Source of the DNA: Chiridota heheva | Lineage: Eukaryota > Echinodermata > Holothuroidea > Apodida > Chiridotidae | Reading direction: 5' to 3' | Assembly (NCBI GenBank): GCA_020152595.1 | Contig: JAIGNY010002177.1 | Span: 392,001-456,000, forward strand | Length of the DNA: 64,000 nucleotides | Shown here: one piece after another, positions 12,185 through 62,132 of the stretch | How positions within the stretch are numbered: the stretch's first letter is position 1 | Layout of the letters: each line of letters begins with the position of its first letter | Position numbers and translations under genes: made by a program | Notes under the pieces: model-generated | Seen by the model: the letters and a program-made list of their open reading frames with translations, nothing else | The model's database searches: none | What the model was told of the DNA's origin: nothing

Positions 12185-12265
12185 ATCACCATATCAGGTC
12201 GAGTGGAGGCTATCCCAGTATTGCCGGAACCAGAGGGCAGTGTCCTCAAGAAACATCTCAAACAG
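12185..12265 (+). CDS. MADD: MADD exon 1 (visible), DENN module
   Basis: The exon has 81 nt and 27 codons, entered and left in phase 0. The acceptor is a pyrimidine-rich tract ending TTTTTCAG and the donor is CAG|GTAGG. The frame reads ITISGRVEAIP, then LPEPEGSVLKKHLKQ; the LPEPEG...K.HLKQ block is typical of MADD just before the conserved ALASMSL segment, which begins the next exon. The longer open frame on both sides (about 12167-12490) is intron read-through. This segment lies in the C-terminal part of the DENN module by comparison with the family. The preceding exon was not found in the 12 kb upstream. Confidence 0.9.
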
Positions 12266-12799
12266 GTAGGTTGCCACCAGGGGTATATCCATTGGGAAGG
12301 GCCCAGACCCCCTCCCTCTAGAGAAAAAGCTACGTTGATATTTTGTTCCATTGAGGAGATATTAAACATAATAAGTTCTCATATTCTTACTTTCTGTACT
12401 ATTGTTAATGCATTTTTTGAACAAACAATGCTGATGAACACAAAAGAACTGATAATTTGTTTAGAAAGTCAACCATGCCAAATATTGTAATTTAATAAGA
12501 TCTGGACAAAGTTTTAGGAACTGGCTGTAAGTTAAACAAGGAATCATGTACCAAGAAAATTGTTGTACTCTTCATTGATAATTCTCATACATATTAGTGA
12601 TGTCACTTCCGTGGTAGTCATTGATTGGTTTGTCAGTTTTAATGTAATATTCTCAACCAATCGGAAAGAGTTGAGCTGTATTGTATATTATCTCCACATT
12701 AAAATGATGACACCAGATTAACACAAGATTAACTACAAGATTAAATACAATGAAAATTCTTTCCAATTCATCAATGTTTGATTTCCTTTTCCCGTACAG

Positions 12800-13135
12800 G
12801 CTCTTGCAAGTATGAGCCTGAATTACCCTCCGCCAATCAAAGACTTCAACAAAGCTAAAGGCGGAGAGATCGAGGCCATCCACCGTCAGCGTGACATGTC
12901 ACCTGACAACAGCTTCAACCCGTTCATCTTCGGCAATGATGTGGATTCAGTCGATGTTGCCACCAGGGTGGCCATGGTCAAGTTCCTAATGTCACCCAAT
13001 GTCCTGGGGAACCACACAGAGCATACCAGGACACTCAGGTTACACCCTCGGCCGGTGGTTGCCTTCCAAGTGCAGAGCTTTTTGGCATCTAGGCCGGTAA
13101 AGACAGACTTCATCGATAGGCTTGCACGAACTCAG
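12800..13135 (+). CDS. MADD: MADD exon 2 (visible), dDENN region
   Basis: The exon has 336 nt and 112 codons, phase 0 at both ends, with acceptor CCCGTACAG|G and donor CTCAG|GTTTG. It opens with ALASMSLN and contains [38 protein letters not shown] and SFLASRP, ending LARTQ. These blocks are diagnostic of MADD and belong to the dDENN end of the Rab guanine-nucleotide exchange module. An in-frame continuation into intron 2 gives a longer but spurious frame to about 13201. A G-rich, degenerate repeat begins about 60 nt after the donor. Confidence 0.95.
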
Positions 13136-13194
13136 GTTTGTAATAAATCAATTATTTTATATCACCAACATGATAGTGAGATTATAGCATCTAT

Positions 13195-13460: not shown

Positions 13461-13535
13461 GTGAAAGTCACTGCTTGCATAAGTCAGTAATAATTACCAG
13501 TGTAATTTCATCATCATTGTTTTTATGTCTTTCAG

Positions 13536-13875
13536 GCGGTTGAATATTTTGGAGAGTATTGTTTGAGTCCTAGTAACGTCACTTTTCTGAGAATCCAGAC
13601 TGGCCTGTTTGATCCTCAAATGATCGGAGACAAACAAAAATGGTTCCGGGAACAACTACTCCCGGTAACATTTACCGTCTACTTTGACAACTGTACACTG
13701 ACTGCTGCTCTCTCACACAATTCTGAGGAGGTATCTGATTCGTCGAATCCGACGGATGAAAGTGGAGAAGAGAGTGAGAGGGAGGCAGACAGCGATGGTA
13801 GCTCATCGTCCTATTCTTCTCTCGAGGATTATGTAAATGACATGATGAACAGTGACATCAGCGGTGACGTCCAAG
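13536..13875 (+). CDS. MADD: MADD exon 3 (visible), post-DENN and acidic serine-rich linker
   Basis: The exon has 340 nt, is entered in phase 0 and left in phase 1, with acceptor GTCTTTCAG|G and donor CAAG|GTGCAG. It starts AVEYFGEYCLSPSN, directly continuing LARTQ as in other MADD proteins, and goes on with FDPQMIGDKQKWF. The second half is acidic and serine-rich, with a run reading SDGSSSSYSSLEDYVNDMM and then SDISGDVQ. In the family this linker follows the DENN module, is phosphorylatable and is subject to alternative splicing. The donor is weaker than those of the other exons. The frame would also read through to a stop at about 13919, so an intron-retained short form is possible but unproven. 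Confidence 0.93.
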
Positions 13876-14610: not shown

Positions 14611-15175
14611 AAAGGATTATTTTAGTGGTCAAGCATCTTCATCTCATATGAAAGATGACTTCAAAAGAAACAAAATGGTGAAGAAAGCATTCAAAAATCT
14701 TATTCTGTTAAGGAGATATTTAAGTTTAAAGTTTGTTATCATTTCTGTAGAAGCAACTGAAATGAGACTATTCGTGATGTCATAGCCTCAGATTCCTCAA
14801 AAGTCTTTATGTATTGTATCATATTTTATCCTGTGATTTTGTGGCTTGAAAACCATGGGATATGTCAAAAAAGTAGTAAAACTGAATCTAGGAAGAGTAT
14901 CTATGATATATTACCTAAAGAAAGTTTGAGAATAATTTAAAAGTGACAAAATTAAATATACATTCTTTAAAACACATAAAGATTTTGAGGAATCTCAGGC
15001 TGTGACATCACAACTAGTCTGATTTCAGTCGTTTCTACACAAATGATACCAAACTTTAAACTTGCATATCTCTTAAACGGAATAAGATTTTTGAATGATT
15101 TCTTCACTATTTTGTTTCTTTCGAAGTCCTCTTTTGTATAAAATAAAGTTGCTTGACCCCTGAACTAATCCTTTA
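14611..15175. mobile_element. Foldback element family A, most complete copy
   Basis: A 565-bp palindromic element. The left arm begins TTAAAAGGATTATTTTAGTGG and runs through AAAGAAACAAAATGGTGAAG, CAAAAATCTTATTCTGTTAAG and GTGATGTCATAGCCTCAGATT. The right arm is the inverted complement of the same segments and ends GACCCCTGAACTAATCCTTTAA. Arms are about 200 bp and imperfect. The centre carries ATGGGATATGTCAAAAAAGT. It encodes nothing, so it resembles a long-TIR MITE; the target duplication could not be fixed. At least eight more copies or fragments are in this window. Confidence 0.85.
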
Positions 15176-15654
15176 AGAGATCAAACCAATCAATTGATAT
15201 AACAGATACAAATGAAGCAATTGTAATCACTTTCTGTTCGGCAATCATTCGCGGAAGGAAACTATAAGTTTCAAGCATGATATTTGAGAGTTGTTGGTCT
15301 TGTTGATTGTTTTATGAATGAATGCATCAAGTTTGGATTTGACTAACCTTCTGAAATCATCAGCTCCTGATGGTAAAATAAAGCTGCCATCAATAACCGA
15401 ATGCGTTGGCGGATGAATGAATATTTAATGATGAAGTAGTTGAGTTTTACAATCCAATCAGTTTCTGATGGCGGATCATGCAACTGAGTGTTTTTGTTTA
15501 TCATTAGAGAAATTGACTTGTATGCAATCTAGCCTCCTGTGGCTTATGCCAAGTGATGGAATCATACGAGAGCAATCTTAGGATTGAAAGTGAATGATAG
15601 TAATGATATCCACAGCTTTCGTTGTGACACTTTGCAGGAAATTGTTTTTAACTG

Positions 15655-15975: not shown

Positions 15976-16213
15976 AATCAAAAATGTGGTATTTGAACAA
16001 ATAAATATTTGACATGAAAAGATCATAAATTCATTTCTTTATAGGCCGTTTCTCTTTAACCATTTAGTTAACAAACAAAACAACACCCAGCAAACTTGAA
16101 AATTTGAAAGTAAAAAGTGAAATTTGTCAGAACGACTTTTGAGGAATGTGAGGATGTGATGTCACAGCTAGTCTAGTTTCAGTCGTTTCTACACAAATGA
16201 GACAGAACTTTCA

Positions 16214-16739
16214 AGGATTAGTTCAGTGGTCAACCAATTTTATCTTACATGAAAGAGAACTTTAGTAGAAACAACATGGTGAAGAAGTACTTCAATATCT
16301 TATTCTGTTAAGGAGATATTCAAGTTTAAAGCTCTGTCTTATGTATGTGAAATGACTAGTGTAGTATGTCCACTGTGGTAGTTTAAAAAAAAAATGTGTT
16401 TTACTACTATTTGAATTGTTTTGCCCCAAAGTTTCTTCAGGTAGCAAATTATAATTACCCCTTACAAGATCCTTACAAGACTCTGTTTTACTACTTTTCC
16501 GACATATCCAATGGTCACAGGACAAAATATAATGAACTGCATAAAGATTTTGAGGAGTCTGAGACTATGACATTACAACTAGTCTGATTTCAGTCGTTTC
16601 TACACAAATGATGCCAAACTTAAAACTTAAATATCTTAATGGAATAAGATTTTTGAATGCTTTCTTTACCATTTGGTTTCGTTGTAAGTCCTCTTTACAT
16701 GAGATTAACTTGTTTAACCACTGAGGTAAATCTTTCAGA
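16214..16739. mobile_element. Foldback element family A copy
   Basis: The left arm starts CAAGGATTAGTTCAGTGGTC and the right arm ends TTTAACCACTGAGGTAAATC. Internal TTCTTCAGGTAGCAAATTA and CATATCCAATGG are shared with other copies. The 85 bp immediately upstream carries an extra piece of right-arm sequence (TTTCAGTCGTTTCTACACAA), suggesting a nested or partially duplicated copy. Confidence 0.8.
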
Positions 16740-17767
16740 ATCTAAAAAGGTGATACTATCCTTAACTCTGTAAACTACCTAGTTTTTTCTTTACAGTCCT
16801 CTTTTATCCATTATCAGAACCTTCCAGAATTCAACTTCTAGGCTGAAATATTCAGACTTTATTCATTTATTTTCTTCAATGTCTTGCTGGTGGCACAAGG
16901 CATAGCTGTACTTCATTACGATCCTAAAGCCGCATTAAAAATATGTCCTAAACACCTGATAATTAACAGAAAACTGGTCGGGTGATCATATTACGTACCC
17001 CCGCTTCAGATTTGCATCACTTGTTTACTCGCGCATTAAATTATAGGATACAGTTTCCAAGCTCCACGACACAATTCATGCATAAGTGATTAAACTAACG
17101 TGAAGGATTGTAAGGCATGCAATCGTGTCTGGAAATTCTCCTGCTATGCTTGAAAGTCGATATTACTTTTGTGGGTTGTTCCAATTAGTGGAGGTGAGAT
17201 GTTGCATGCATTCAATTTGGACAATTTTTTAATGTGGCGGCTAGATTGTCGTGTTCATCACCTTTTGTAAAGATCAGATTCCTCACTTGTGACATTGCGT
17301 AGGTTTTCCACGTTTGACATTTGGTTGAAAATGTTAAAGTATGTGGAAATGTAGAACAGTTTTCTCTTCAACCACTCACCGAAAAAAACATGAAATTCTC
17401 AATTTAATAGTCTTTGATTTTTGAAAATAGGATATAGTTTTCGAGTTTTGGGTAAAGTAAAACAGTTTCTTTTTTCATCATATTGAAAAAATATGGTGTA
17501 TAAACAGGAAAACACATCAAAATGCCTTCTCCAGCTTGAAATTGGTTGGGGTTTTGGGGGAGGTAGGGAGGGGGTATGGTAAACATATAATCCTCTTCAT
17601 TAGGATTATCTTCCCTCGATATATTGAAGAATTTTGTTAGTTATTTTAGATTTCAGAAATTTTATCCAGAGATTTATCTTTGATTTATGTTATTTTTTAC
17701 TGTATTTTAGATTAAAGATATTTTTACTGTATTTCAGATTTAAGATATATTTTTTGTTCTCAAACAG
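16740..17767. other. Intron 3, last part, no feature recognised
   Basis: Unique-looking AT-rich intron. It ends with TTTTACTGTATTTNAGATT-like near-repeats just before exon 4; these include AG dinucleotides upstream of the real acceptor. Confidence 0.4.
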
Positions 17768-17916
17768 AAGATAAAGATGCTTGTGGAAGCCTGTACAGTG
17801 GAGTGGATGAGACAAGCATTTATCAGCCGCCCGATTCCCTCCAGATACCGCCTGAAATCGCTCAGAACGACTCAAGTCAGTCCATGCCTGACAGTGACTC
17901 CTCCAGTAGCCAGGAT
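17768..17916 (+). CDS. MADD: MADD exon 4 (visible), variable linker
   Basis: The exon has 149 nt, is entered in phase 1 and left in phase 0. The acceptor is TTCTCAAACAG|A and the donor is GAT|GTAAGT, a near-consensus site. Joined to exon 3 it reads EDKDACGSLYSGVDETSI, then PPDSLQIPPEI, and ends SDSSSSQD. This region is poorly conserved between phyla, so the assignment rests on strand, splice sites, exact phase agreement with exons 3 and 6, and the acidic serine-rich composition expected here. It was missed by simple open-frame scanning because the exon is short. Confidence 0.8.
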
Positions 17917-17954
17917 GTAAGTGCTTTGTATATTGTATAGTCAATGATAACTTA

Positions 17955-18141
17955 CAGGACCAGTGATACCTCAATCATCAAGTATCAGGTTGTCTGAAGT
18001 TGCATTTAAGTCAAAGGAACACAAACTGCCCTTTCTATAGCTGTAACATTCGTTTGCTGTACATATATATGTATGTAGGTATGTATGTATGAAGGTATGT
18101 ATGTATGTAGGTATGTAGGTATATAGGTATGTATATATATT

Positions 18142-18177
<36 letters not shown>

Positions 18178-18311
18178 ATATTTATATATATATAATATAT
18201 ATATAGATATATATGTATATATATATATATTATACATACATATATTTATATATATATATTATATACATATACAACATACATTTCATACATATACATACAT
18301 ACATACCTACA

Positions 18312-18347
<36 letters not shown>

Positions 18348-19235
18348 TATTATATAGATTCATTTAATTGCTGTATATATATATATATATATATACATAT
18401 ATACATATATATATATATAGATAGATAGATACATACATACATACATACATACATACATGTTTAAAATTAACAAGAACTTAAAGGACCAGGGACATCTCTA
18501 ATCAACTAATCTTAGATTGTTGTAAGATGCTTTAAAGTCAAAGGAACACAGCCTTGTCTTGTATACATCTGTTACACATTTATTTTTTTGTAGATTTTTT
18601 AAAAACCTGCAGGAATGTAGAGGACCAATGACACCTAAACAACAATTGTTGATTGTCTTAAGGTAGGACCTAAACAACAATTGCTTCATTGACACCTACA
18701 CAACAATTGCTTGAATGTTTTAAGATAAAGATATATTTAACCTTATAAAGTATTTAAAGAATCAGGGACACCTCTAATCAACATATACCTGATTGTCTAA
18801 AGGAGCTTCAAAAGCATAGGGACACTAAAGTGACATTTATACAGCTTTAACATTCATTTTCCCCATAAATATTTATAATCAAAAAAAAAAAAAAAAAAAA
18901 ATCGTTTCAGGACCAGGGACGCCTAAATCAACCAATTTTAAACGTGTCTTTAAGTGGCTCTAAACTCATAGGACAAATAAACAGTTCTTACATGGTTTTA
19001 GACTCAAGAAGTAGTTAGCGGGCCTAGGACACATGTAATCAACAATCACCAGAATGCCTTAAGCAGCTTTAAAAATCATATCAGCCCATAAAATTACATT
19101 GATACAGCTTCAACATTCATCTGCTGTACGTAATCTCATGAAGAATTTAAAGGGCCAGTGACACCTAATCACCAATCACCAAATTTGTCTTAAATAGCTT
19201 TAAGAATCAAAGAAGCACATAACATGTGGTTTATA
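17955..19235. repeat. Degenerate tandem units of about 115-130 bp interrupted by a microsatellite
   Basis: Each unit holds GGACCAGGGACACCT-like, CAATCA, GATTGTCTTAAG-like, TTTAA.TCAAAGGAACACA and TACAGCTNTAACATTCAT motifs in that order. Units are near 17955, 18480, 18615, 18765, 18905, 19020 and 19150. The series starts about 40 nt after the exon 4 donor. A poly(A) run of about 21 is at 18881. Confidence 0.7.
18061..18460. repeat. (GTAT)n / (AT)n / (ATAC)n microsatellite cluster
   Basis: About 400 bp of GTATGTATGTAG, long TATATA and CATACATACATA tracts. The two halves are roughly inverted complements, so a large cruciform or hairpin is possible. The frame at 18213-18428 is low complexity and not a gene. 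Confidence 0.95.
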
Positions 19236-29465: not shown

Positions 29466-29550
29466 AGGACCATTATATGTCAGACCATTTTATGTTGGAC
29501 CATTCTATGGTGGACCATTTTATGTTGGACCATTTTATGGTGGACCACCA
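29466..29550. repeat. 15-bp tandem repeat, about 5 units, starting at an exon donor
   Basis: Units of GGACCATTTTATGTT and GGACCATTTTATGGT alternate. The first unit (GGACCATTATATGTC) begins inside the donor GTAAGG of candidate exon 5. Confidence 0.85.
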
Positions 29551-34105: not shown

Positions 34106-35042
34106 TTCTTTTAAGACACAAAATGTAATGGGAGGTTTAGACTTAATGATGTAAAGCTGTTTTGTATGAGTAAAGAGATTATGCTGTTTGCTTAAATTTT
34201 GATTTAAGTGTTATTCATGTTTTAAATATTACTAAAATTTCTGACTAAATTATTGATGTTTTTTCCACATTTCGTTAATGGTCTATGCATCAAACGATTG
34301 TACAGAATGTCAGTAAATGTATGTGGACCGTGGGATAACAATAATCATTTTAAAATCCATTGAAGGATGATAACATTTCTATGCAAAATAATTGAAAGCT
34401 TGTAATGACATGATTTGGCAGACCTAGGCCCGTACGTTAATTCATTGTAATCTGTGAGTGTGAAGGAAATAAGTGACAATTTTAGGTGAAATCCTAATGT
34501 ATTTAAAACACTGCTTTATCTTTTTAATTTTTCATATTTTTGGTCCTTTCCTCCTTTTCTTTGGGAACACATGCCCCCTTTTGCCTTCTCTTGGCTACCT
34601 ACAGTACCTGCTCTAAAGTACACAATTCAGAATTTAAAAACCTGAATTTTATTGCTTTTTATTTTCCAATTTAAATATTTCTTAGTTTTCTGCCGCAATT
34701 GCATTCCTATTCTTTTAAATCAGAATTAGCACTTTCAGCTGCTTCTCGATCAATTTTTCTACTTACAAATGTTTTGCTACAAATCAACTTCCCATTTGCA
34801 GATGTGAAGACTGTGTTTTTTGTTCATTGCATGTTTTTTTGGTTAAATTCAGCAAGTCTAGAGTTCAGTTTTATCCATGCATGTTTGATGGATGTCAGTG
34901 ACCATCAAAAAGTGCACCGTTGTTGTTGTTGTTGTGACTTTCTTTCACCCATGCCATCAAGATGTGGTCATGCCATCATTATCAGAATCTTGATTTTGGA
35001 AACTATGATCACACATCGGCATTTACCTTGAGATTTATTCAA
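34106..35042. other. Intron 5, no gene recognised
   Basis: A 110-codon frame at 34699-35031 has no recognised features. It lies just upstream of the large 21-bp array. Confidence 0.4.
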
Positions 35043-37872
35043 GAGGGGCACAAGGACCATGCCAAAGGACACAAGAACCATGTCAAAGGACACAAGAACC
35101 ATGCCAAAGGACACAAGAACCATGCCAAAGGACACAAGAATCATGCCAATGGACACAAGAACCATGCCAAAGGACACAAGAATCATGCCAAAGGACACAA
35201 GAACCATGCCAAAGGACACAAGAACCATGTCAAAGGACACAAGAACCATGCCAAAGGACACAAGAACCATGCCAAAGGACACAAGAATCATGCCAAAGGA
35301 CACAAGAACCATGCCAAAGGACACAAGAACCATGCCAAAGGACACAAGAACCATGCCAATGGACACAAGAACCATGCCAAAGGACACAAGAACCACGCCA
35401 AAGGACACAAGAACCATGTCAAAGGACACAAGAATCATGCCAATGGACACAAGAACCATGCCAAAGGACACAAGAACCATGCCAAAGGACACAAGAACCA
35501 TGCCAAAGGACACAAGCACCATACCAAAGGACACAAGAACCATGCCAAAGGACACAAGAACCATGCCAAAGGACACAAGAACCATGTCAAAGGACACAAG
35601 AATCATGCCAATGGACACAAGAACCATGCCAAAGGACACAAGAACCACGCCAAAGGACACAAGAACCATGCCAAAGGACATAAGAACCATACCAAAGGAC
35701 ACAAGAACCATGCCAAAGGACACAAGAACCATGCCAAAGAGCACAAGCACCATACCAAAGGACACAAGAACCATGCCAAAGGACACAAGAACCACGCCAA
35801 AGGACACAAGAATCATGCCAAAGGACACAAGCACCATACCAAAGGACACAAGAACCATGCCAAAGGACACAAGAACCACGCCAAAGGACACAAGAACCAT
35901 GCCAAAGGACACAAGAATCATGCCAAAGGACACAAGAACCATGCCAAAGGACACAAGAACCATGCCAAAGGACACAAGAACCATACCAAAGGACACAAGA
36001 ACCATGCCAAAGGACACAAGAACAATGCCAAAGGACACAAGAATCATGCCAAAGGACACAAGAACCATGCCAAAGGACACAAGAACCATGCCAAAGGATG
36101 CAAGAATCATGCCATAGGACAAAAGAACCATGCTAAAGGACACAAGAACCATGCCAAAGGACACAAGCACCATAGCAAAGGACACAATAACCATGCCAAA
36201 GAATGCAAGAATCATGCCAAAGGACACAAGAACCATGCCATAGGACACAAGAACCATGCCAAAGGACACAAGAATCATGCCAAAGGTACAAGAATCATGC
36301 CAAAGGGCACAAGAATCATGCCAATGGACACAAGAACCATGCCAAAGAGCACAAGAATCATGCCAAAGGACACAAGAATCATGCCAAAGGACACAAGGAC
36401 CATGCCAAAGGACACAAGAACCATGCCAATGGACACAAGAACCATGCCAAAGGACACAAGAACCATGCCAAAGGACACAAGAACCATGCCAAAGGACACA
36501 AGAACCATGCCAAAGGACACAAGAATCATGCCAAAGGACACAAGAATCATGCCAAAGGTACACGAATCATGCCAAAGGTACAAGAATCATGCCAATGGAC
36601 ACAAGAACCATGCCAATGGACACAAGAACCATGCCAAAGGACACAAGAACCATGCCAAAGGACACAAGAACCATGCCAAAGGACAAGAATCATGCCAAAG
36701 GTACAAGAATCATGCCAATGGACACAAGAACCATGCCAAAGAGCACAAGAATCATGCCAAAGGACACAAGAATCATGCCAAAGGACACAAGAACCATGCC
36801 AAAGGACACAAGAACCATGCCAAAGGACACAAGAACCATGCCAATGGACACAAGAACCATGCCAAAGGACACAAGAACCATGCCAAAGGACACAAGAACC
36901 ATGCCAAAGGACAAGAACCATGCCAAAGGACACAAGAACCATGCCAATGGACACAAGAACCATGCCAAAGGACACAAGAACCATGCCAAAGGACACAAGA
37001 ACCATGCCAAAGGACACAAGAACCATGCCAAAGGACACAAGAACCATGCCAAAGGACACAAGAATCATGCCAAAGGACACAAGAATCATGCCAATGGACA
37101 CAAGAATCATGCCAAAGAGCACAAGAATCATGCCAAAGGACACAAGAATCATGCCAAAGGACACAAGGACCATGCCAAAGGACACAAGAACCATGCCAAA
37201 GGACACAAGAACCATGCCAATGGACACAAGAACCATGCCAAAGGACACAAGAACCATGCCAAAGGACACAAGAACCATGCCAATGGACACAAGAACCATG
37301 CCAATGGACACAAGAACCATGCCAATGGACACAAGAACCATGCCAATGGACACAAGAATCATGCCAAAGGTACAAGAATCATGCCAAAGGACACAAGAAT
37401 CATGCCAAAGGTACACGAATCATGCCAAAGGTACAAGAATCATGCCAATGGACACAAGAACCATGCCAAAGGACACAAGAATCATCAAAGGACACAAGAA
37501 CCATGCCAAAGGACACAAGAACATGCCAAAGGACAAGAATCATGCCAAAGGTACAAGAATCATGCCAAAGGACAAGAATCATGCCAAAGGACACAAGACC
37601 ATGCCAAAGGACACAAGAACCATGCCAATGGACACAAGAACCATGCCAAAGGACACAAGAACCATGCCAAAGGACACAAGAACCATGCCAATGGACACAA
37701 GAACCATGCCAATGGACACAAGAACCATGCCAATGGACACAAGAACCATGCCAATGGACACAAGAATCATGCCAAAGGTACAAGAATCATGCCAAAGGAC
37801 ACAAGAACCATGCCAAAGGACAAGAATCATGCCAAAGGGCACAAGAACCATGCCAAAGGGACATTCCATCAA
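35043..37872. repeat. 21-bp satellite-like array, about 130 units, open in all six frames
   Basis: The core unit is GACACAAGAACCATGCCAAA plus G. Variants swap AACC for AATC, AAAG for AATG, and some units lose 3 bp (GGTACAAG). Because the unit is seven codons and contains no stop in any frame, long frames occur on both strands. The + strand ones read GHKNHAK, DTRTMPK or TQEPCQR repeats, up to 1002 codons (34962-37970); the - strand ones read FGMVLVS, LWHGSCV or PLAWFLC repeats. Later units contain indels that move one reading into another without a stop. There are higher-order blocks, e.g. 36340-36590 resembles 36730-36900 and 37110-37440. It sits in a MADD intron; nothing shows it is translated. 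Confidence 0.95.
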
Positions 37873-38126
37873 AAGAACACAATACCATAACCCTGCCAAT
37901 AAGTGAAATAATTATGTCGAATGGCAAAAGAATCATGCCAAAGACTCCTAGTTTTCCTGGTGAAGTATGACCTCCAATACAGGTGGCAGTTTTGAAGTTT
38001 GTTGCACAGTTATATTGTTGCATTCATTAACAGTGTTAACTTGTGACTTTGTGTCTTTATTAACCTGACTGTGTTTTGTTCAATATCACATTTTAACATG
38101 ATACTTATTGTGTTTGAAAATGCTTT

Positions 38127-38850: not shown

Positions 38851-39289
38851 CTGCTTTGAAGGAGGAATTTATAAGGATGTTGGCCTGGAATTATTTTTAG
38901 AATGTAAATCATATTTGGTGTCATAGCATGGACAGGATGGGGTTGTCATGTGATGTGTTGGGGATGTATTGGGACAGCTAAAAGATGCTTATTATGCAAA
39001 TAATTTGGGAGAACCTGAAAAGTTTGAACCCTTGGAGAGAGTGTAGTTTACATTTAGCATTTTGGTCTTGCACTGTTTTTTTTTTTCATTTCCTTTACAC
39101 TTGCTTTTTATTTTTGGTCAAAAATGAGTTAGATTATAAAAAATTAGAAGAAGTTGTTATTCTTTGAGAAAGCCAAGGCAAATAATAAGAGAGAAACAAT
39201 ATAAAGTCATTATGTAATTTCTGCCATTTTTCATTTTCATCCTTTCGGGCACATTACAAACCTTATGAATATTCATATTTTGTTTTCAG
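38851..39289. other. Intron 5, last part, no feature recognised
   Basis: AT-rich sequence leading to the exon 6 acceptor. Confidence 0.4.
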
Positions 39290-39764
39290 ATGAGAGTGCC
39301 ACAGGAAATGTCGCTATCATCAGCCGCCGATACAGACCACGATGTAGACAGCACACAGTACGACTCGGACGGTGCCCCGCAAAACTCCCGAACAACACAC
39401 AAAACTAAACGACAAAATCCAGATGGAAGCAATTCTCCGTCGTTCATGGATAAAGTCAACGCCTTCTTCAGGTCAGACTCATCCGATTCCTCGGCCCCGC
39501 CCAGTCCATCCAAGAACAATTCCAAATCGTCACTTCTGAAAAGTTTCATGGATCTTGCTCTGGAGGTGCCGCCCAATCAGGACAGAGAACCTCCAGGTTC
39601 CCCGACTTCCTTGAAGAGTGAAAGAAACGGGTATTCTGCGAGTATAAAATCAGACCCTGGACCGCCAAGAAGAGGGAGTGGATTTTCATTCAATAGTTTT
39701 GGTACCACGACGAGCATGGGACTACCCACCAGGAAGAAGAAACCCTCGCATTCGTTGATAGGTG
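39290..39764 (+). CDS. MADD: MADD exon 6 (visible), serine/proline-rich central region
   Basis: The exon has 475 nt, is entered in phase 0 and left in phase 1, with acceptor TTTTGTTTTCAG|A and donor GGTG|GTAAGA. It begins MRVPQEMSLSSAADTD; the first codon happens to be ATG, but it follows a splice acceptor and should not be taken as a start. The content is low-complexity and hydrophilic, with SFMDKVNAFFRSDSSDSSA, PPSPSK, a basic KKKPSHS stretch and several SP/TP motifs, consistent with the disordered, phosphorylated centre of MADD. Read-through past the donor reaches a stop about 100 nt later. A 108-bp tandem array starts roughly 60 nt into the following intron. Confidence 0.85.
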
Positions 39765-39822: not shown

Positions 39823-41108
39823 CGCCTCCTCTATTAAATATTGTCCCCGAGTGTGGATATGATATGCTATAATAAATGTAGTAAATGATAATCTCAGAGA
39901 TTTGCCGATTGTTTTGATCAATATTTACACCTCCTCTGTTCAATATTGTCCCCCAGTGTGGAAATGATGTGATTTAATAAATGTAGTCGGTGATAATCTC
40001 AGAGATTTGCCGATTGTTTTGATCAATGATTATTATACCACCCTGTTCAATATTGTCCCTGAGTGTGGAAATGATATGATATAATAAATGTAGTAAATAA
40101 TAATTTCAAAGATTTGCCGATTGTTTTGATCAATAAATATTACACCACCCCTGTTCAATATTGTCCCTGAGTGCGGAAATGATATGATATAATAAATGTA
40201 GTAAATAATAATTTCAAAGATTTGCGATTGTTTTGATCAATAAATATTACACCTCCCTGTTCAATATTGTCCCTGAGTGTGGAAGTAATATGATATAATA
40301 AATGTAGTAAATAATAATTTCAAAGATTTGCCGATTGTTTTGATCAATAAATATTACACCACCCCTGTTCAATATTGTCCCTGAGTGCGGAAATGATATG
40401 ATATAATAAATGTAGTAAATAATAATTTCAAAGATTTGCCGATTGTTTTGATCAATAAATATTACACCTCCCCTGTTCAATATTGTCCCTGAGTGTGGAA
40501 GTAATATGATATAATAAATGTAGTAAATAATAATTTCAAAGATTTGCCGATTGTTTTGATCAATAAATATTACACCTCCCCTGTTCAATATTGTCCTGAG
40601 TGTGGAAGTAATATGATATAATAAATGTAGTAAATAATAATTTCAAAAGATTTGCGATTGTTTTGATCAATGATTATTATACCACCCCTGTTCAATATTG
40701 TCCCTGAGTGTGGAAATGATATGATATAATAAATGTAGTAAATAATAATTTCAAAGATTTGCCGATTGTTTTGATCAATGATTATTATACCACCCCTGTT
40801 CAATATTGTCCCTGAGTGTGGAAATGATATGATATAATAAATGTAGTAAATAATAATTTCAAAGATTTGCCGATTGTTTTGATCAATGATTATTATACCA
40901 CCCCTGTTCAATATTGTCCCTGAGTGTGGAAATGATATGATATAATAAATGTAGTAAATAATAATTTCAGAGATTTGCCGATTGTTTTGATCAATAAATA
41001 TTACACCACCCCTGTTCAATATTGTCCCTGAGTGCGGAAATGATATGATATGTTAAATGTAGTCAATAATCTTCAATGATTTGCCGATTGTTTTGATCAA
41101 TAAATATT
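39823..41108. repeat. About 12 tandem copies of a 106-108-bp unit
   Basis: The repeated CAATATTGTCCCTGAGTG lies at 106-108-bp spacing (e.g. 39941, 40048, 40156, 40262, 40370). Each unit also has ATGATATAATAAATGTAGTA and GATTTGCCGATTGTTTTGAT. Unit alternation of CACCACCCC/CACCTCCC and of AATAAATATT/AATGATTATT shows a higher-order pattern. The array starts about 60 nt after the exon 6 donor. Minus-strand frames here are repeat products. Confidence 0.95.
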
Positions 41109-41478
41109 AGTTTTACAAGTCTGCAATCAGATCTTTTGTTTGCAGATGACACTGCTACTTACAACACATTAAGAATGAGCATTTATCTAACATTTCATGG
41201 ATTTTTCGCTTTTAATGTTAGAGTTGATCACTTCTATCAAAATTACCCACAAATTTAACAAAAGCATCACCTTCATTTTTTGACTGAGTCCTTCTCATAA
41301 GATTCTTAAAAAAAAATTGACACCTATATACACCAGTATGTCATTTATGGATCCTTGATACTTCCTCAAAGTCTTTGTTGGACAAAATGTTTTTTTTTGG
41401 ACAATACCTGAGCATGGACAAAGGAATTATCTCTGCATTAATTAAATGTAAAACAAGTCAATAACCTTGGGAGTATAA
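41109..41478. other. Intron 6, no feature recognised
   Basis: AT-rich spacer. Confidence 0.4.
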
Positions 41479-42791: not shown

Positions 42792-42888
42792 ATACCAGGA
42801 AGCACTTGGAGAGGACATCTTTGATCAGACACAGCTCCACCAAAAAACCAGACAAGAAGGTATCCCTTTCAAGTGAACGACCTAATAG
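42792..42888 (+). CDS. MADD: MADD exon 7 (visible)
   Basis: The exon has 97 nt, is entered in phase 1 and left in phase 2, with acceptor TTGTTTCACAG|A and donor AATAG|GTGAGT. It reads DTRKHLERTSLIRHSSTKK, then PDKKVSLSSERPN. The short basic motif SLIRHSSTKKP resembles the basic stretch that precedes the conserved FLKE block in vertebrate MADD. The phase joins exactly to exon 8, forming the serine before EDQLFLKE. The donor GTGAGT is itself the first bases of the 23-bp minisatellite that fills most of the next intron. The last 68 nt are duplicated at 44857-44924. Confidence 0.88.
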
Positions 42889-44826
42889 GTGAGTGCTCCC
42901 ATCACAGGGTATAGAGTGCTCCCATCACAGGGTATAGAGTGCTCCCATCACAGGGTATAGAGTGCTCCCATCACAGGGTATAGAGTGCTCCCATCACAGG
43001 GTATAGAGTGCTCCCATCACAGGGTATAGAGTGCTCCCATCACAGGGTATAGAGTGCTCCCATCACAGGGTATAGAGTGCTCCCATCACAGGGTATAGAG
43101 TGCTCCCATCACAGGGTATAGAGTGCTCCCATCACAGGGTATAGAGTGCTCCCATCACAGGGTATAGAGTGCTCCCATCACAGGGTATAGAGTGCTCCCA
43201 TCACAGGGTATAGAGTGCTCCCATCACAGGGTATAGAGTGCTCCCATCACAGGGTATAGAGTGCTCCCATCACAGGGTATAGAGTGCCCCCATCACAGGG
43301 TATAGAGTGCCCCCATCACAGGGTATAGAGTGCCCCCATCACAGGGTATAGAGTGCTCCCATCACAGGGTATAGAGTGCTCCCATCACAGGGTATAGAGT
43401 GCTCCCATCACAGGGTATAGAGTGCTCCCATCACAGGGTATAGAGTGCTCCCATCACAGGGTATAGAGTGCTCCCATCACAGGGTATAGAGTGCTCCCAT
43501 CACAGGGTATAGAGTGCTCCCATCACAGGGTATAGAGTGCTCCCATCACAGGGTATAGAGTGCTCCCATCGCAGGGTATAGAGTGCTCCCATCACAGGGT
43601 ATAGAGTGCTCCCATCACAGGGTATAGAGTGCTCCCATCACAGGGTATAGAGTGCTCCCATCACAGGGTATAGAGTGCTCCCATCACAGGGTATAGAGTG
43701 CTCCCATCGCAGGGTATAGAGTGCTCCCATCGCAGGGTATAGAGTGCTCCCATCGCAGGGTATAGAGTGCTCCCATCGCAGGGTATAGAGTGCTCCCATC
43801 GCAGGGTATAGAGTGCTCCCATCGCAGGGTATAGAGTGCCCCATCGCAGGGTATAGAGTGCTCCCATCGCAGGGTATAGAGTGCTCCCATCGCAGGGTAT
43901 AGAGTGCTCCCATCGCAGGGTATAGAGTGCCCCATCGCAGGGTATAGAGTGCTCCCATCAGGGTATAGAGTGCTCCCATCACAGGGTATAGAGTGTCCCA
44001 TCACAGGGTATAGAGTGCAGGGTATAGAGTGCTCCCATCACAGGGTATAGTGTGCTCCCATCGCAGGGTATAGAGTGCTCCCATCGCAGGGTATAGAGTG
44101 CTCCCATCACAGGGTATAGAGTGCTCCCATCGCAGGGTATAGAGTGCTCCCATCGCAGGGTATAGAGTGCTCCCATCGCAGGGTATAGAGTGCTCCCATC
44201 ACAGGGTATAGAGTGCTCCCATCACAGGGTATAGAGTGCTCCCATCACAGGGTATAGAGTGCTCCCATCACAGGGTATAGAGTGCTCCCATCACAGGGTA
44301 TAGAGTGCTCCCATCACAGGGTATAGAGTGCTCCCATCACAGGGTATAGAGTGCTCCCATCACAGGGTATAGAGTGCTCCCATCACAGGGTATAGAGTGC
44401 ACCCATCACAGGGTATAGAGTGCTCCCATCACAGGGTATAGAGTGCTCCCATCCCATCACAGGGTATAGAGTGCTCCCATCAGGGTATAGAGTGCTCCCA
44501 TCGCAGGGTATAGAGTGCTCCCATCGCAGGGTATAGAGTGCTCCCACAGGGTATAGTGTGCTCCCATCAGGGTATAGAGTGCTCCCATCGCAGGGTATAG
44601 AGTGCTCCCATCCAGGTTATAGAGTGCTCCCATCACAGGGTATAGAGTGCTCCCATCACAGGGTATAGAGTGCTCCCATCACAGGGTATAGAGTGCTCCC
44701 ATCACAGGGTATAGAGTGCTCCCATCACAGGGTATAGAGTGCTCCCATCACAGGGTATAGAGTGCTCCCATCACAGGGTATAGAGTGCTCCCATCACAGG
44801 GTATAGAGTGCTCCCATCGCAGGGTG
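42889..44826. repeat. 23-bp minisatellite, about 84 units, starting in the exon 7 donor
   Basis: The unit is GTGCTCCCATCACAGGGTAT plus AGA. Variant blocks carry TCGCAG for TCACAG (43690-43935, 44055-44190) or CCCCC for CTCCC (about 43285-43335), and a few units are truncated. The first unit overlaps the donor GTGAGT of exon 7. The 1.9-kb array fills most of the intron up to the exon 7 relic. Confidence 0.97.
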
Positions 44827-44856
44827 TACAATATAATATAATAATGACCTCATTCA

Positions 44857-44924
44857 TTGTTCAGACACAGCTCCACCAAGAGACCAGGCAAGCAGGCATC
44901 CCCTTCAAGTGATTGCTTTAATTG
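44857..44924 (+). pseudogene. Partial duplicate of MADD exon 7 beyond the minisatellite
   Basis: This 68-nt segment aligns without gaps to 42821-42888, the end of exon 7, at about 80% identity or more. The frame is conserved and reads FRHSSTKRPGKQASPSS. A cryptic acceptor ending TTGTTCAG lies inside it, and splicing from exon 7 to it would be in phase, but the position of the original donor GGTGAG is now GTTGTC and no in-phase donor is evident. It is best read as an exon relic left by a tandem duplication whose interval is now the 23-bp array. Use as an alternative exon is not excluded. Confidence 0.75.
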
Positions 44925-45067
44925 TTGTCATGGCAATCTCTACCATCATCATTACCATTGTCATTGGTGGCAGCAATGGTGGCGTTGTCATCAGAGCCAC
45001 TACCGCAATCATCCTCATTATAATTTTAATTGTCATCAGCATTATCATCTTTTTCTTTGTTGTCGTT

Positions 45068-45121
45068 ATCTTCAAAATCATCATCACAATCATCATCATC
45101 ATCATCATCTTCATCATCATC

Positions 45122-45194
<73 letters not shown>

Positions 45195-45770
45195 CCATCA
45201 CCATCATCATCATTACATTGTCATCAAAATAACCATCACACTATCTGTAACATCTACATGGTTTGAATTTTTGAAGTTGTAGTCATTGTCTTTATCACTA
45301 CTCCTGGCAGTAATAGTAACGTCACTATCATCCTCATATCATAACCAAAATCATAATGGCATTATTAGGAACATCGTCGTGGTCGTCATCATCAGCATCA
45401 TCATCATCATTTTTTCATTTTAATGGACTAAAATCACCATCATCATCATCATCACCATAATTTTCATAATCGTCGTCATCTTCACCATCATTATCGTCAT
45501 CATCATAATCATCATAATCACATCATAATCACATCATCATAATCATCATCATAATCATCATTACCATAATTTTCATAATCGTCATCATCATCACCATCGT
45601 CATCATTATCATCACATCATCATCACATCATCATCATCATCTTCATCATCACATCATCATATTCACATCATCATCATCATCGTCATCACCATAATCATCA
45701 CCATAGTTTTCATAATCGTTATTATCATTACCACCATTATATCATAATCGGCATCATCATCATTGATCTA
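45068..45770. repeat. (ATC)n microsatellite and degenerate ATC/ATA-rich tail
   Basis: A near-perfect CATCATCAT run spans about 45095-45215, then an impure tract continues to 45770. Frames giving poly-H, poly-S, poly-I or poly-M are artefacts. Confidence 0.95.
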
Positions 45771-45837
45771 AATTTGATGTAAAAGGATAAAGTTGATGAA
45801 TTGTTCATAATTTGATATTTTTCTCTACACATTACAG

Positions 45838-46015
45838 TGAGGATCAGCTGTTTTTGAAAGAAATAACTGGAAGCGTGCTGCAAGGAAACAACGTGGGCTG
45901 GCTAAACTGGCCCCGCCTCAAGAAACTGATGCAAAATGAGAATCTGCGAGCGCAGGTGATTAGCCAGCTGTACCCGCAGGACAATACCATCAAGGAGGAG
46001 TACATTGAGGATGTG
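45838..46015 (+). CDS. MADD: MADD exon 8 (visible), conserved central helix block
   Basis: The exon has 178 nt, is entered in phase 2 and left in phase 0, with acceptor CTACACATTACAG|T and donor GTG|GTAGGT. It reads EDQLFLKEITGSVLQGNN, then VGWLNWPRLKKLMQNE and LRAQVISQLYPQ, ending YIEDV. The pattern FLKE..xSVL.G...GWLN...R.L is strongly conserved in MADD and identifies the gene with confidence. A foldback repeat element begins about 30 nt into the following intron. The open frame extends at both ends into intron sequence and is not coding there. Confidence 0.95.
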
Positions 46016-46047: not shown

Positions 46048-46651
46048 TAAAGGATTAGTTGGGGGGTCAAGCAAGTCACATTTCATATGAGAGAGAACTT
46101 TTAAAACCCATTTCATATGAGAGAGAACTTTTAAAAGAAACAGAATGGTGAAGAAAGTATTCAAAAATCTTATTCTGTTAAGGAGATATTCAAATTTAAA
46201 AGCTCCCTTCTTATCTGTGTAGAAAGGACTGTTGTAGTGTGTCTAACTATGGAAAGTTGGCACCCTCATCCTCACATTCTTAACAATTGTTAATGTATTT
46301 TAAAGAAAAATATTTTATTTTTTCGCTTTCAATTATTTTTCCTCAAACTTTCTTCAGGTGGTATATTATAAATACTCTTCCTAATAGGTTCAGTTTTACC
46401 AGATTTTTGACATATCCCATTGTGTTTAAGCTACAAAATCTCAGGACAAAGTATGATAGAATACATAAAGACTTGAAGGAATCTGAGGCTATGACATCAC
46501 AAGTAGTCTGGTTTCAGTCATTTCTACACAATTGATACCAAACTTTAAACTTAGATCTTCTTAACGGACTAAGATTTTGTAATGCTTTCTTTTCCATTTT
46601 GTTTCTTTTGAAGTCCTTTTTCATATGAGATGGACTGCTTGACCACTGAAC
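46048..46651. mobile_element. Foldback family A copy next to exon 8
   Basis: The left arm starts TTTAAAGGATTAGTTGGGGGG and the right arm ends CTTGACCACTGAACTGGGTC. A 33-bp stretch with TTTCATATGAGAGAGAACTT is duplicated at the left (46080 and 46111). The element begins about 30 nt after the exon 8 donor. Confidence 0.8.
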
Positions 46652-47375: not shown

Positions 47376-48318
47376 AGAAAGCTTCCGACACTACTTGGAA
47401 AAAACGGCACCAAACTTCACACCATCCGCCTCAGAGGCCACCTCCCCATTTTTATTAAAACTTTTTCTCCCTCAGGCAGTTCCAAGTTCGTATTGGCCAC
47501 ACCCTCTCCAATCCAAGGACGGTGACAAGACAGCTGCTGCTGCCGTCATCCAAGACATCACCCTCGGTAGCAAGCTTCCCAATTACTCGTCCTTCTTCTC
47601 GGTTGAGGCCAAGGCCATCCTCCTCACCCTCAACTTTATTGAGTACTCCCCGCTCAGCCTCATTGCCATCTTTGTCAACTCAAAGGCTGTCCTTGCTTCT
47701 TTACTTAATCTTAAATGGGATAACTCCACATCTCACCTCTTCCGTAAACTCCTTTCGCCCCCTCTCCTTTCTCCTCCTGCAGGAAAAGTATTTTTTTCTT
47801 CTGGATACCCAGCCATGTTGGCATCCCTAGCAATGGCAGAGCTGATGCAGCCGCTAAGCTTGCCCTCAACCACCCCCCCCTCCCCCTCTCACTCATTTTC
47901 CTTAGACCCTTTCTGACATCAAACCGCTTATCGTTTCCCTTGTTCGTGACCGCTGGCAAACCTCATGGGACTCTCAAATTGATAACAAACTTCACGTCGT
48001 CCAGCCCACCATTCTGATCAAACCCACCATCCACAACCTCTCCCGTATTGACAGTGTCCACATTACCCGCCTTAGAATAGGTTACACCCACGTCACTCAC
48101 TCCCACCTCATTATTGGCTCACCCCACCCCTCTGCAACAATTGCCATTGCACCCTCACAGTCCATCACGTCCTCCTTGCTTGCCCCTTGTTCAATCTTCC
48201 CAGAGCTTCCCTTGCTCCCCACAACTCAATAGCCGAGCTCTTCCAGAAAAACCCTCCGGATGAAATTATCTCCTTCCTTCATCATGCTTTCCTCTACAAC
48301 CATATTTAGTCCTCCTCT
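47376..48318 (+). pseudogene. Decayed LINE: reverse-transcriptase remnant joined to RNase H region
   Basis: The start holds two pieces in different frames, LRGHLPIFIK and RQFQVRIGHTLSNP, that resemble the central part of a non-LTR reverse transcriptase. They run directly into an RNase H-like segment (AAAAVIQDITLGSKLPNYSS, FSVEAKAILLTLNFIEYSP, FVNSKAVLASLLNLKWD). The catalytic palm with its YADD-type motif is missing, so there is an internal deletion. Further on, separate frames give SLVRDRWQTSWDSQ and HITRLRIGYTHVTHSHL, typical of the C-terminal end of Jockey/CR1-like elements. Several frameshifts and stops; not functional. Same sense as MADD. Confidence 0.85.
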
Positions 48319-48544: not shown

Positions 48545-48935
48545 AGCATAGACAAGGCCTCGTACAAGGGCGTGGTTACCATCTTGAAGGCTATCATCGC
48601 AGGTTTTGAACAATCTTATGAGCACCACACGGCGGGTGGAATGGCAAGCGCTCTTGCGCTCCTTGAAATGGCGCACATACATTACTTTGGCAAGGAGCCA
48701 GAAAGGGTGGAGAAAACTAGAAAGTCACGACACCACCACCGGTCGCAGCCTCAGCCTCCCGATGCTGAACATGGTGCGTATCTCCTAGATAGTATGCTGT
48801 CGCAACGGCGAACCCAGAAATTGCATAGCGTGTCGGAAATACCAGTCCCACCAGCAGGGCCACCCATGGGTCCCGTCTGGCGTGGGATGACTCAGTCCCG
48901 AAGCCTTAATGAGGATAATTTTGTGGCAGCTTTAG
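48545..48935 (+). CDS. MADD: MADD exon 9 (visible), last exon seen
   Basis: The exon has 391 nt, is entered in phase 0 and left in phase 1, with acceptor TTGTGATTTTTCAG|A and donor TTTAG|GTGAGA. It reads SIDKASYKGVVTILKAI, FEQSYEHHTAGGMASALAL, LLEMAHIHYFGKEPER, a basic histidine-rich stretch, and finally RSLNEDNFVAAL. The YKG...LK...EQSY....GGMAS...LLE.A..HY..KEP pattern and the SL.E.NF.A block are MADD hallmarks. The next exon, expected to begin the charged region after NFVAAL, was not found in the remaining 15 kb. Confidence 0.95.
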
Positions 48936-50223: not shown

Positions 50224-50249
50224 GATTCTAACGCACTTCTAACCAACCT

Positions 50250-50738
50250 TAACTGACCGTGTCGACAACGTCTACATTACCCGCCTTAAAATAGGTCACA
50301 CCCACCTCACTCACTCCCACTTCCTTACTGGCTCCCCTCCCCCACCCCTCTGCAAGAATTGCCATTGCACCCTCACAGTTCATCACATTCTCCTTGCTTG
50401 TCCCCTGTACAACCTTCCCAGAGCTTCCCTCGCTGTGCACAAGTCAATAGCTGAGCTCTTCCAAAAAAAAACCTCCGGATTAAAATATCTCCTTCCTTCA
50501 TCATGCTTCCCTCTACAACCAAATTTAGTCATCCTTCCCCACTCTCTCTCTCTCTACATTATTTTTTCACCCATACACCTCTCTCGGTCCCAGCTTTCTG
50601 TCTTTTAGTTCTCGTGTCTCTCTCAATCTCCCACTGTTTACTCTCCTTCCTACCTCTGGAATGATCTAACCTCTCAGGCACAATTTGACCTTTGCTGTTG
50701 TGGTGCCGTTAAAGTCTCATCAAACAAACAAACCAACC
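50250..50738 (+). mobile_element. LINE 3' end fragment, copy 3, with CCHC knuckle
   Basis: Encodes YITRLKIGHTHLTHSH, then CKNCHCTLTVHHILLACPL, a C-x2-C...H-x4-C knuckle typical of the C-terminus of Jockey/CR1-like elements. The interval then runs through a CT-rich stretch to GTGGTGCCGTTAAAGTCTCA and (CAAA)n. Frameshifts present. Confidence 0.85.
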
Positions 50739-51387
50739 TTAAAAATGTAGTTACCAGCCCAGCCCTGACCCCCGTAATACCTCTAACATCCCTCACTCTT
50801 TTTCAGCGCGTTGTTATCACAACATCGCTGGAACTGGTCTTAATTTTTCTCTGAAAAATTTTCACCAACAATAGTTGGTCTATGAAACATAATTCACAAT
50901 TCTTTGAATGTACAGACAGATAGATGGAAGAAATCCTTTTCATGGCTATCTCAAAATAGAAAAATGGCAAAAATTCCAATTTAATTTTGTAAAGGCAGTA
51001 CACAACATTGAATATTCAGATATCGATATGCAAATTTGTATGCAAATGTGTATTGCCCTTTTATGTATATTAAATGTTAGTATATCCTGCCACAATTCAG
51101 TGGGCGCGACAGTTTACAAAAGAAGATGAGCCTGATGTGATAACTACTTTTTATGTATTGTCTTACTAAATGAAGTGCTGGCTGAACAATTGGCATTTGA
51201 ATTGAGAGACTTTGAAACCTGTCTGTCCAACAACAGCTTTAAATTTCCCTCAACATTTGACTCGAAGCAGATTTGAGGTTTTATGTTATTCAGCCTATAA
51301 TTTGGCTTCTAATTATACCAACATAGCTCTCTCCCATAACATAAAGATTTTAGGCTGTGCACTTCAGTCATGCATCACAATTTAAAC
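50739..51387. other. Intron 9, no feature recognised
   Basis: AT-rich spacer with no repeat identified. Confidence 0.4.
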
Positions 51388-51766
51388 GATTAGTTCAGTG
51401 GTCAAGCAAGTCTATCTTATAATGAAACAGGACTTCAAAAGAAACAAAATAGTGAAGAAAGCGTTCAAAAATCTTATTCCGTTAAGGAGATATTCAAGTT
51501 AAAAGTTTGGTATCATCTTGTAGAAATGACTGAAATCAGACTAGTTTGTGATGTCACAGCCTCAGATTTCTCAGCATCTATATGTATTTTAAAGTATTTT
51601 AGAATATGATAGAATACATAAAGACACTGAGTAATCTGAGGCTATGACATCACAACTAGTCTGATTTCAGTCATTTTTACAAAAATGATACCAAATTTTA
51701 AAGTTTAATATCTCCTTAATGGAATAAGATTTTTGACTGCTTTCTTCACCATTTTGTTTTTAGCAA
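51388..51766. mobile_element. Foldback family A copy, right end truncated
   Basis: The left arm begins AACGATTAGTTCAGTGGTCA; the right arm runs to TTCTTCACCATTTTGTTTTT and then stops, so the last 50 bp of the element are absent. Confidence 0.8.
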
Positions 51767-56760: not shown

Positions 56761-57880
56761 GCATATGCCTTAAAGTGAAATACAATAATAGTCTCTTGTG
56801 CTTTAATATGGTTTAATGTCATTCACAACCTGAAAGATGATACTTGAACTTTTAAGAAAATATAAGAAATAAATAAAGCTACAAACTCAAAATCACAATG
56901 AAAGCTTTCGTAGTGAGCACTCTTTATCTGATGGTAGGTGGTAGGCATTCAGCAAAGTAATGCATGTTCTATTGGCCCCAGCAAATTTATTCTCATTGCA
57001 CAATCTGCCACGACACACACAGACACCTCGTTTCACACCTTTTTGTCGCACTAATCTTTGTGTTAACTGCAGTCTCACTTCTGACACTACACATCACCCA
57101 TGCATCTGCTCAGTGCACTCCATGAAAGAAATGAGAAATGAAAACAGTATTGGTGCTGACATGTTCTGAAAATTAAGCTTTTTGATTACGATGTAAGATC
57201 TTAAAAAACAAAAGATATTTTCCTAAGAAATCCCCCCCTCCCCTGGGGAGTGTCTAGCTTTTTATTTTTAGGGGGCTTCAAGCCCCTATAAACATTCAAG
57301 GGCTTGACACAGATTTAGGATTAGGGGCTAGGACAGAGGTGTAGGTAATTGGGGCACTTCCCCTCCCACAAATGGTTTCTTCTTCCCAGTTGCATGCTTG
57401 TTTCCCAGTTGGGAGGACAATTAATAATATCATTTCAAATTGCCAACATTTGCTTAAAATTTCTCGAAATTGACTGATTTTCCGGAATGGTAATTGTAGA
57501 AAATTTCCTGGAAATTGAAGTATAAATGCTGGCAATTGAAGAAAATTTTACGCAAATGTAGGAAATTGCACAAAAAGTGCAGGAGATTTCCCAAAATTGA
57601 CGAAGATTTTCCGAAAAATTCATTGAAATTGAAACAAATTTCCTGGAATTTGTATAACCAAAAAGAATAGGCTACGGAAATTTTAGGAGGATAAGCCCTT
57701 AATATCTCCCTTAGATACACCACTGTCCCCCAACCAATTGGTATACTTTTTCTGCAGTAATATCTGATTACGAATTTGCTTCTCCAGTCTCTCGCAGCAC
57801 AAACCACGTAAATTATGTTTACGCTCCAGCTCATTGTGCTCCTATGCAACAACTCAATTCACTGAATATTTATCACTGAG
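56761..57880. other. No gene recognised
   Basis: 57440-57650 is rich in AATTTCC/GGAAATTG words in both orientations (irregular repeats). Frames on the minus strand here (57296-57852) have no family support. Confidence 0.4.
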
Positions 57881-61558: not shown

Positions 61559-62132
61559 TCAAGGGTCCAGCAAGTCTATCGTATATAAAAGAGAACTTCA
61601 AAAGAAACAAAATGGTGAAGAAAGCGTTCCAAAATCTTATTCCAATAAATAGATATCTAAGTTTAAAGTTTGGCATCATTTATGTAGAAACAACTGAAAT
61701 CAGACTAGTTGTGATGTCATACATAGCCTCAGATTCCTCAGTTTTTATGCACGCTATCATATATTGCCGTGTAATTTTGTGGCTTAAAAACCATGGGATA
61801 TGTCAAAAAAGTAGTGAAATTGAATGTAGGTAGGGTATTTTCAATATACCACCTGAATAAAGTTTGAGGAAGAATAATTTAGATAGAGACAAAAATTAAA
61901 CTTCCTTCCAAATACATTACAATTGTTAAGAATGTGAGGATGCAGACACCAACTTTCCATACTAGACTTACTACTCCAGTCATTTCTACACAGATAAGAC
62001 AGAGCTTTAAACTTAAATATCTCCTTAACGGAATAAGATTTTTGAATGCTTTCATTACCATTTTGTTTCTTTTGAAGTCCTCTTTCATATAAGATGGACA
62101 TGCGTGACCTTGAACTAATCCTGCAATTTTGC
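61559..62132. mobile_element. Foldback family A copy
   Basis: The left arm reads TCCAGCAAGTCTATCGTATA then AAAGAAACAAAATGGTGAAG; the right arm reads TATCTCCTTAACGGAATAAG and ends TGACCTTGAACTAATCC. The centre has AACCATGGGATATGTCAAAA and CCACCTGAATAAAGTTTGAGG. Confidence 0.85.

Follow-up and report, generated by a model that had tools for sequence, protein, structure and literature searches.

A fragment of exon 7 of what looks like an animal MADD-like gene recurs, in decayed form and on the same strand, in the intron that follows the exon, and a minisatellite of 23-bp units lies between the two copies. We regard it as probable that the fragment derives from an old, local and partial duplication of exon 7 that is now a dead relic, and that the minisatellite has grown in the intron between the copies, a reading based on one assembly. 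The window referred to throughout is the whole stretch of DNA that was analysed, 64 kb in length. The arrangement makes it legible how a piece of an exon decays within an intron that a minisatellite, starting at the donor, has lengthened. Known processes most likely account for it, as a tidy fossil, and by itself it amounts to ordinary genome decay; if donor-anchored arrays with exon relics were common in the lineage, they would offer a path, open to testing, by which small duplications lead to long introns, alternative exons or new introns.

Exon 7 and its copy in the following intron

The identity of the gene was assessed with approximate human MADD queries, which in tblastn searches gave ordered matches at 12203-12268 (E 0.001), 12800-13138 (E 2e-29), 13533-13868 (E 1e-22), 45824-46015 (E 2.4e-9) and 48548-48934 (E 1e-13); the first residues of one query had been shaped by the window, and its match at 12185 was excluded. 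Residues 1-409 of the N-terminal query have no match in the window at E 0.1, and the gene therefore probably starts beyond the window. With the query whose first residues had been shaped by the window, exons 6 and 7 and the part past residue 689 gave nothing better than E 0.8, and the probable exon near 17768 (17768-17916) has no match to the human MADD queries; these three exons were assigned from their position, splice signals and frame. The exon numbering is that of an earlier note on this DNA, whose attribution of exon 7 to MADD holds insofar as the other exons match in order, but exon 7 itself is unmatched. The single Pfam match to the translations of seven exons is dDENN, below threshold (E 0.053).

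On the forward strand, exon 6 occupies positions 39290-39764, exon 7 positions 42792-42888 and exon 8, which closes the array-bearing intron, positions 45838-46015. Exon 7 is 97 nt long, enters in phase 1 and leaves in phase 2, and is delimited by a CACAG acceptor and a GTGAGT donor, while exon 8 is defined by the tblastn match at 45824-46015, its splice sites and its frame. The three exons join in frame. The G+C content varies between 29 and 45% across the window in 2-kb steps.

The earlier note had claimed that the last 68 nt of exon 7 recur without indels, and an ungapped comparison of 42821-42888 with 44857-44924 does give 55 identical bases out of 68, the second-best ungapped places for this segment in the whole window reaching 34/68 on the forward strand and 35/68 on the reverse strand. 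Local alignment and BLASTN agree on a gap-free secure core, in which 51 of the 59 bases of 42818-42876 are identical to those of the relic core, 44854-44912. The local alignment score of the exon 7 region against the region after the array is 78, whereas 1000 dinucleotide-preserving shuffles averaged 18.4 and went no higher than 30. When exon 7 with 60-nt flanks was compared with the array-masked window, BLASTN returned one strong off-site match (E 3.5e-15), the next having an E value of 0.038, and neither this search nor the ungapped scan found a further copy of the exon 7 segment on either strand within the 64 kb. With such scores and no second copy in the window, the similarity is therefore real and local to the window. 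The core covers 59 of the 97 bases of exon 7, and a significant same-strand match of this kind, between an exon and an intron of one gene, is what characterizes a degenerate partial exon duplicate.

The end of the match is less secure than the earlier note had it. In the final 12 exon bases before the donor, which pair with 44913-44924 and fall outside the secure homology, 6 of 12 are identical; this has a probability of 0.07 by chance and of 0.003 at the core's own identity, the latter figure being biased, since the aligner picked the core for its high identity. The first 25 bases of the intron, compared with the 152 bases after the relic (44925-45076), score 7 against a null mean of 6.3 (P 0.36), and the best piece of that comparison, CTCCCATCA / CTACCATCA (8/9), which lies in an ATC-rich stretch, was rejected at the same P value. 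No match past 42876 rises above chance when the exon end and the intron start are compared with the DNA after the relic, and the 25 bases between the array and the relic do not resemble the start of exon 7 and the intron upstream of it (P 0.32). Because the tail reaches only 6/12 and the intron start is at chance level, the duplication is supported for exon DNA only, and its extension across the donor or into the array lacks such support.

The 23-bp minisatellite at the donor of exon 7

Direct splitting of the array on the forward strand, at 42891-44828, yields 85 units of 14 types, and TRF reports 83.9 copies at 42891-44825, in agreement with the earlier description of about 84 copies of a 23-bp unit, the first of which overlaps the donor. 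The array begins 2 nt from the first base of the intron and thus lies at the splice site itself; its first unit overlaps GTGAGT and supplies donor positions +3 to +6. Its head-to-tail units of some tens of bases make it an intronic minisatellite. It measures 1,938 bp, and without it the two exon 7 sequences would be 98 bp apart in register, compared to 2,036 bp now.

Fifty-two of the 85 units are identical, including all of the first 17 at the donor end; runs of 8-9 units of the same type also occur farther along, and units with indels are found mostly in the middle and later parts of the array. Since more than half of the units are identical, with 17 of them consecutive at the donor end, against an identity of 86% in the relic core, the array looks either young or homogenised. 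A search of the window for the unit with up to three mismatches gave 75 places, none of them outside the array, and the exact 23-mer is absent from viral contigs, which says little.

The consensus of the unit was compared with the sequences from which it might have been derived. Against exon 7 its local score is 5, where the null mean is 7.1 (P 0.999), which lends no support to exon 7 as its source, and against 44925-45076, after the relic, the comparison gives P 0.65. As the unit shows no resemblance to exon 7 or to the sequence past the relic, growth of the array from duplicated DNA finds no support in these comparisons.

Most array units also contain an acceptor-like sequence, CTCCCATCRCAG followed by G, that outscores the acceptors of exons 6, 7 and 8 in a simple, approximate matrix. 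Among the top eight kinds of such sites, the three commonest account for 74 sites with 10.7-11.5 bits, above the real acceptors, in a scoring that ignores the branch point. With this matrix, the true donor of exon 7 has 10.9 bits, and the commonest donor-like site of the units, present at 83 places, has 2.3 bits. The acceptor-like sites might act on the splicing of exon 7.

Possible origins of the arrangement

Under the explanation we favour, a segment of 59 bases or more in the 3' half of exon 7 was copied, as the similarity shows, a short way downstream into the following intron. The copy, having lost its donor or never having had one, would have drifted since then as non-coding DNA. Separately or later, a 23-bp unit starting at donor position +3 would have expanded to about 85 copies, leaving the two exon 7 sequences about 2 kb apart, and splicing would still join 42888 to 45838, so that the whole intron would be transcribed and removed and the protein left unaffected. 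The spacing of 98 bp that remains without the array fits the scale of a local duplication. The order of duplication and expansion, the origin of the array and any causal link between the two events are parts of the scenario that we infer; the homogeneity of the array, which can also arise by concerted evolution, does not date their order.

The earlier note went further and proposed a tandem duplication whose intervening DNA became the minisatellite. Part of that proposal is borne out, in that exon 7 has a partial same-strand copy in this intron and a minisatellite separates the two. Its other parts, a duplication reaching the donor and an array grown from duplicated DNA, are not borne out by the comparisons given above, in which no match above chance continues past 42876. 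As no homology was found that extends to the donor or into the intron, support is lacking for a simple tandem duplication that spanned the boundary, and a copy of exon DNA alone into the intron fits equally well.

Degenerate copies of exons that lie in introns have been described as a class, and Exonize classifies exon duplications that include an intronic match (PMC12343006). As in that class, an exon is matched in part by an intron of its own gene; our case differs in having a long minisatellite between the copies and, when set against the class by its description, in a match that covers 59 of the 97 exon bases. Human tandem repeats at exon-intron boundaries have also been discussed (PMC2812944).

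Among the alternatives, the one that survives best is that the relic and the array are causally unrelated, sharing an intron by chance, with the array starting at the donor by chance as well; we hold this to be possible, if rather doubtful. Nothing among our comparisons ties the 23-mer to duplicated DNA, and the window is rich in repeats, 41 merged tandem arrays making up 29% of it. When the set of arrays was shifted at random, 8.9% of 20,000 trials brought some array end to 2 nt or less from a located splice site, and 18% to 5 nt or less; these P values are approximate, as the test used 14 splice sites, several of which (those of exons 3, 4, 5 and 9) are tblastn or eye estimates. Because random shifts produce it in about 9% of cases in so repeat-rich a window, the placement of the array at the donor is, alone, weak evidence of anything. 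Against the chance reading stands the comparison of the 150-nt flanks of the 41 arrays (200 shuffles; flanks entering another array masked with N), in which only the exon 7 array was found to have exon sequence repeated across it. Four of the 41 flank pairs exceed the maximum of the shuffles, namely those of the exon 7 array and of the arrays at 18063-18455, 57488-57548 and 29467-29547, and the exon 7 array is the only one of the four with an exon located in our analysis. A general rule by which the arrays here sit between exon copies is thus rejected. The runner-up pair, 17949-18023 / 18475-18550, flanking the array at 18063-18455, is intronic, with related stretches nearby. It should be noted that our assessments of the different readings do not exclude one another, because that of unrelated events overlaps with the favoured explanation, which leaves the link open.

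A second alternative, which we judge unlikely, is that the array is a degenerate form of the structures known as mirages, in which repeated exon-intron boundary units would have lost their exon part and the 23-mer would be the remaining intron part. Mirages are known from the amphioxus globins BflGb6 and BflGb9 (PMC3087553) and from PGBD5 (PMC3902484), and those papers also cite mirages in Adh3 and troponin C; among the openly licensed papers, they are the nearest published structures that we found. Mirage units carry exon-intron boundaries; those of the globin genes are about 150-160 bp long, those of Adh3, as cited in these papers, 10-72 bp, and normal splicing is argued to be undisturbed (PMC3087553, PMC3902484). 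With the amphioxus cases as so described, our array shares tandem repeats at an exon-intron boundary and a duplicated exon edge in the neighbouring intron: it begins in the donor itself and a fragment of exon 7 recurs beyond it, and BflGb9 carries a duplicated 3' boundary of exon 2 (PMC3087553). However, the mirage units of those descriptions span the boundary and contain exon sequence, whereas the 23-bp consensus, in an array that runs from donor position +3, contains no detectable sequence of exon 7, and by this definition the array is not an amphioxus mirage. It also differs in having a single decayed exon fragment whose secure match ends 12 nt short of the boundary.

We give still less credence to a duplication of the boundary that seeded a donor-anchored array, whose first unit would be kept by selection on the donor and would go on supplying the array with copies of itself; exon-edge duplication and the birth of a minisatellite at a donor would then be a single type of event. 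Such a process would predict the 17 identical units in a row next to the donor, but runs of 8-9 occur elsewhere in the array.

It is highly improbable, in our judgement, that the relic functions, or is beginning to function, as an alternative exon (7b) spliced between exons 7 and 8, 44865-44978 (114 nt, phase 2 to 2) being one example. The earlier note was right that a cryptic acceptor in phase with exon 7 (TTCAG, the first base after it being 44865 on the forward strand) lies in the relic and that no donor is present at the homologous place. Hypothetical splicing of 42888 to 44865 keeps the phase, with an open frame up to a stop ending at 45282, and a weak in-phase donor (4.2 bits) after 44978 would allow a 114-nt inclusion that keeps the frame. 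With the approximate matrix, the relic acceptor scores 5.8 bits, more than that of exon 8 (3.6) but less than those of exons 6 and 7 (7.3 and 8.1), and 8.6% of the AGs of the window score at least as high; the donor falls far short of the one at exon 7, and the frame beyond the relic is rich in His, Cys and Trp. The 13 substitutions of the relic, distributed 5/5/3 over the codon positions, cause 9 amino-acid changes and leave 1 codon silently changed in 22, while 13 changes placed at random alter 8.3 amino acids on average and leave an open frame in 63% of 20,000 runs. The open frame that had been pointed out is indeed there; since random simulations match it, neither it nor the supposedly conservative nature of the changes is evidence of selection, and the changes are in fact slightly harsher than random (mean BLOSUM -0.67 vs -0.47, with 66% of the stop-free runs at least as mild). 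We thus find no support for coding constraint on the relic; its substitutions look neutral, and it is probably not used as an exon.

That the exon 7 match is a dispersed repeat or an assembly artefact we find scarcely credible: the window is rich in dispersed repeats, but a check on this possibility, which the earlier note had itself raised, found no additional copy in the 64 kb, and an identity of 81-86% would seem too low for two stitched haplotypes.

The copy of exon 7 could also be thought of as the source of the intron. In the RdRp gene of potato, an intron has reportedly been gained through the duplication of AG/GT proto-splice sites. The mechanism, attributed to Rogers as cited in PMC3087553, resembles our case in the duplicated exon DNA with an intron between the copies, and differs in that here about 0.9 kb more of intron follows the second copy before exon 8. 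Because of this distance, with exon 8 starting at 45838 and not at the relic, gain of the intron by AG/GT tandem duplication fails as an explanation, and the duplication of exon 7 does not look like the source of the intron.

Other repeats in the window

A second boundary copy was considered at exon 6, whose acceptor region, 39275-39302, resembles 41131-41158 (82%, E 0.11); the match is not significant and was rejected. An array of about 12 copies of a 108-bp unit, at 39837-41109, begins 72 nt past the donor of exon 6, and 41131-41158 lies beyond it. Upstream, 135 copies of a 21-bp unit at 35049-37859 are accompanied by a forward-strand open frame of 1010 aa (34938-37970), which is mechanical, because 21 is a multiple of 3, and is no evidence of a gene. 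An acceptor-like short repeat (TACTGTATTTTAG / TACTGTATTTCAG) at 17691-17754 ends 14 nt ahead of the probable exon at 17768-17916, and an ATC-rich repeat of about 690 bp, at 45077-45763, lies past the relic and stops 75 nt short of exon 8.

Besides that of exon 7, the BLASTN matches of exons to the window below E 0.01 comprise one of exon 5 and six that fall in the intron immediately downstream of exon 8, each of the six within or beside a dispersed repeat. The exon 5 match is a perfect one of 18 bases, 13776-13793, to 2033-2050 on the other strand (E 0.002). The self-comparison of the window, from which near-self matches were left out and of which 120 of 185 matches were listed, revealed a family of dispersed repeats that reach about 0.5 kb in length and occur in both orientations; it includes, among the matches listed, the copies at 14611-15176, 16210-16735, 46137-46650, 51381-51759 and 61564-62122. 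The copy at 14611-15174 also matches its own reverse complement, again among the matches listed, and the family is possibly a MITE-like element. Finally, two related open stretches, at 47906-48232 (..ITRLRIGYTHVTHSH..) and 50243-50608 (..ITRLKIGHTHLTHSH..), resemble the end of a LINE-type element.
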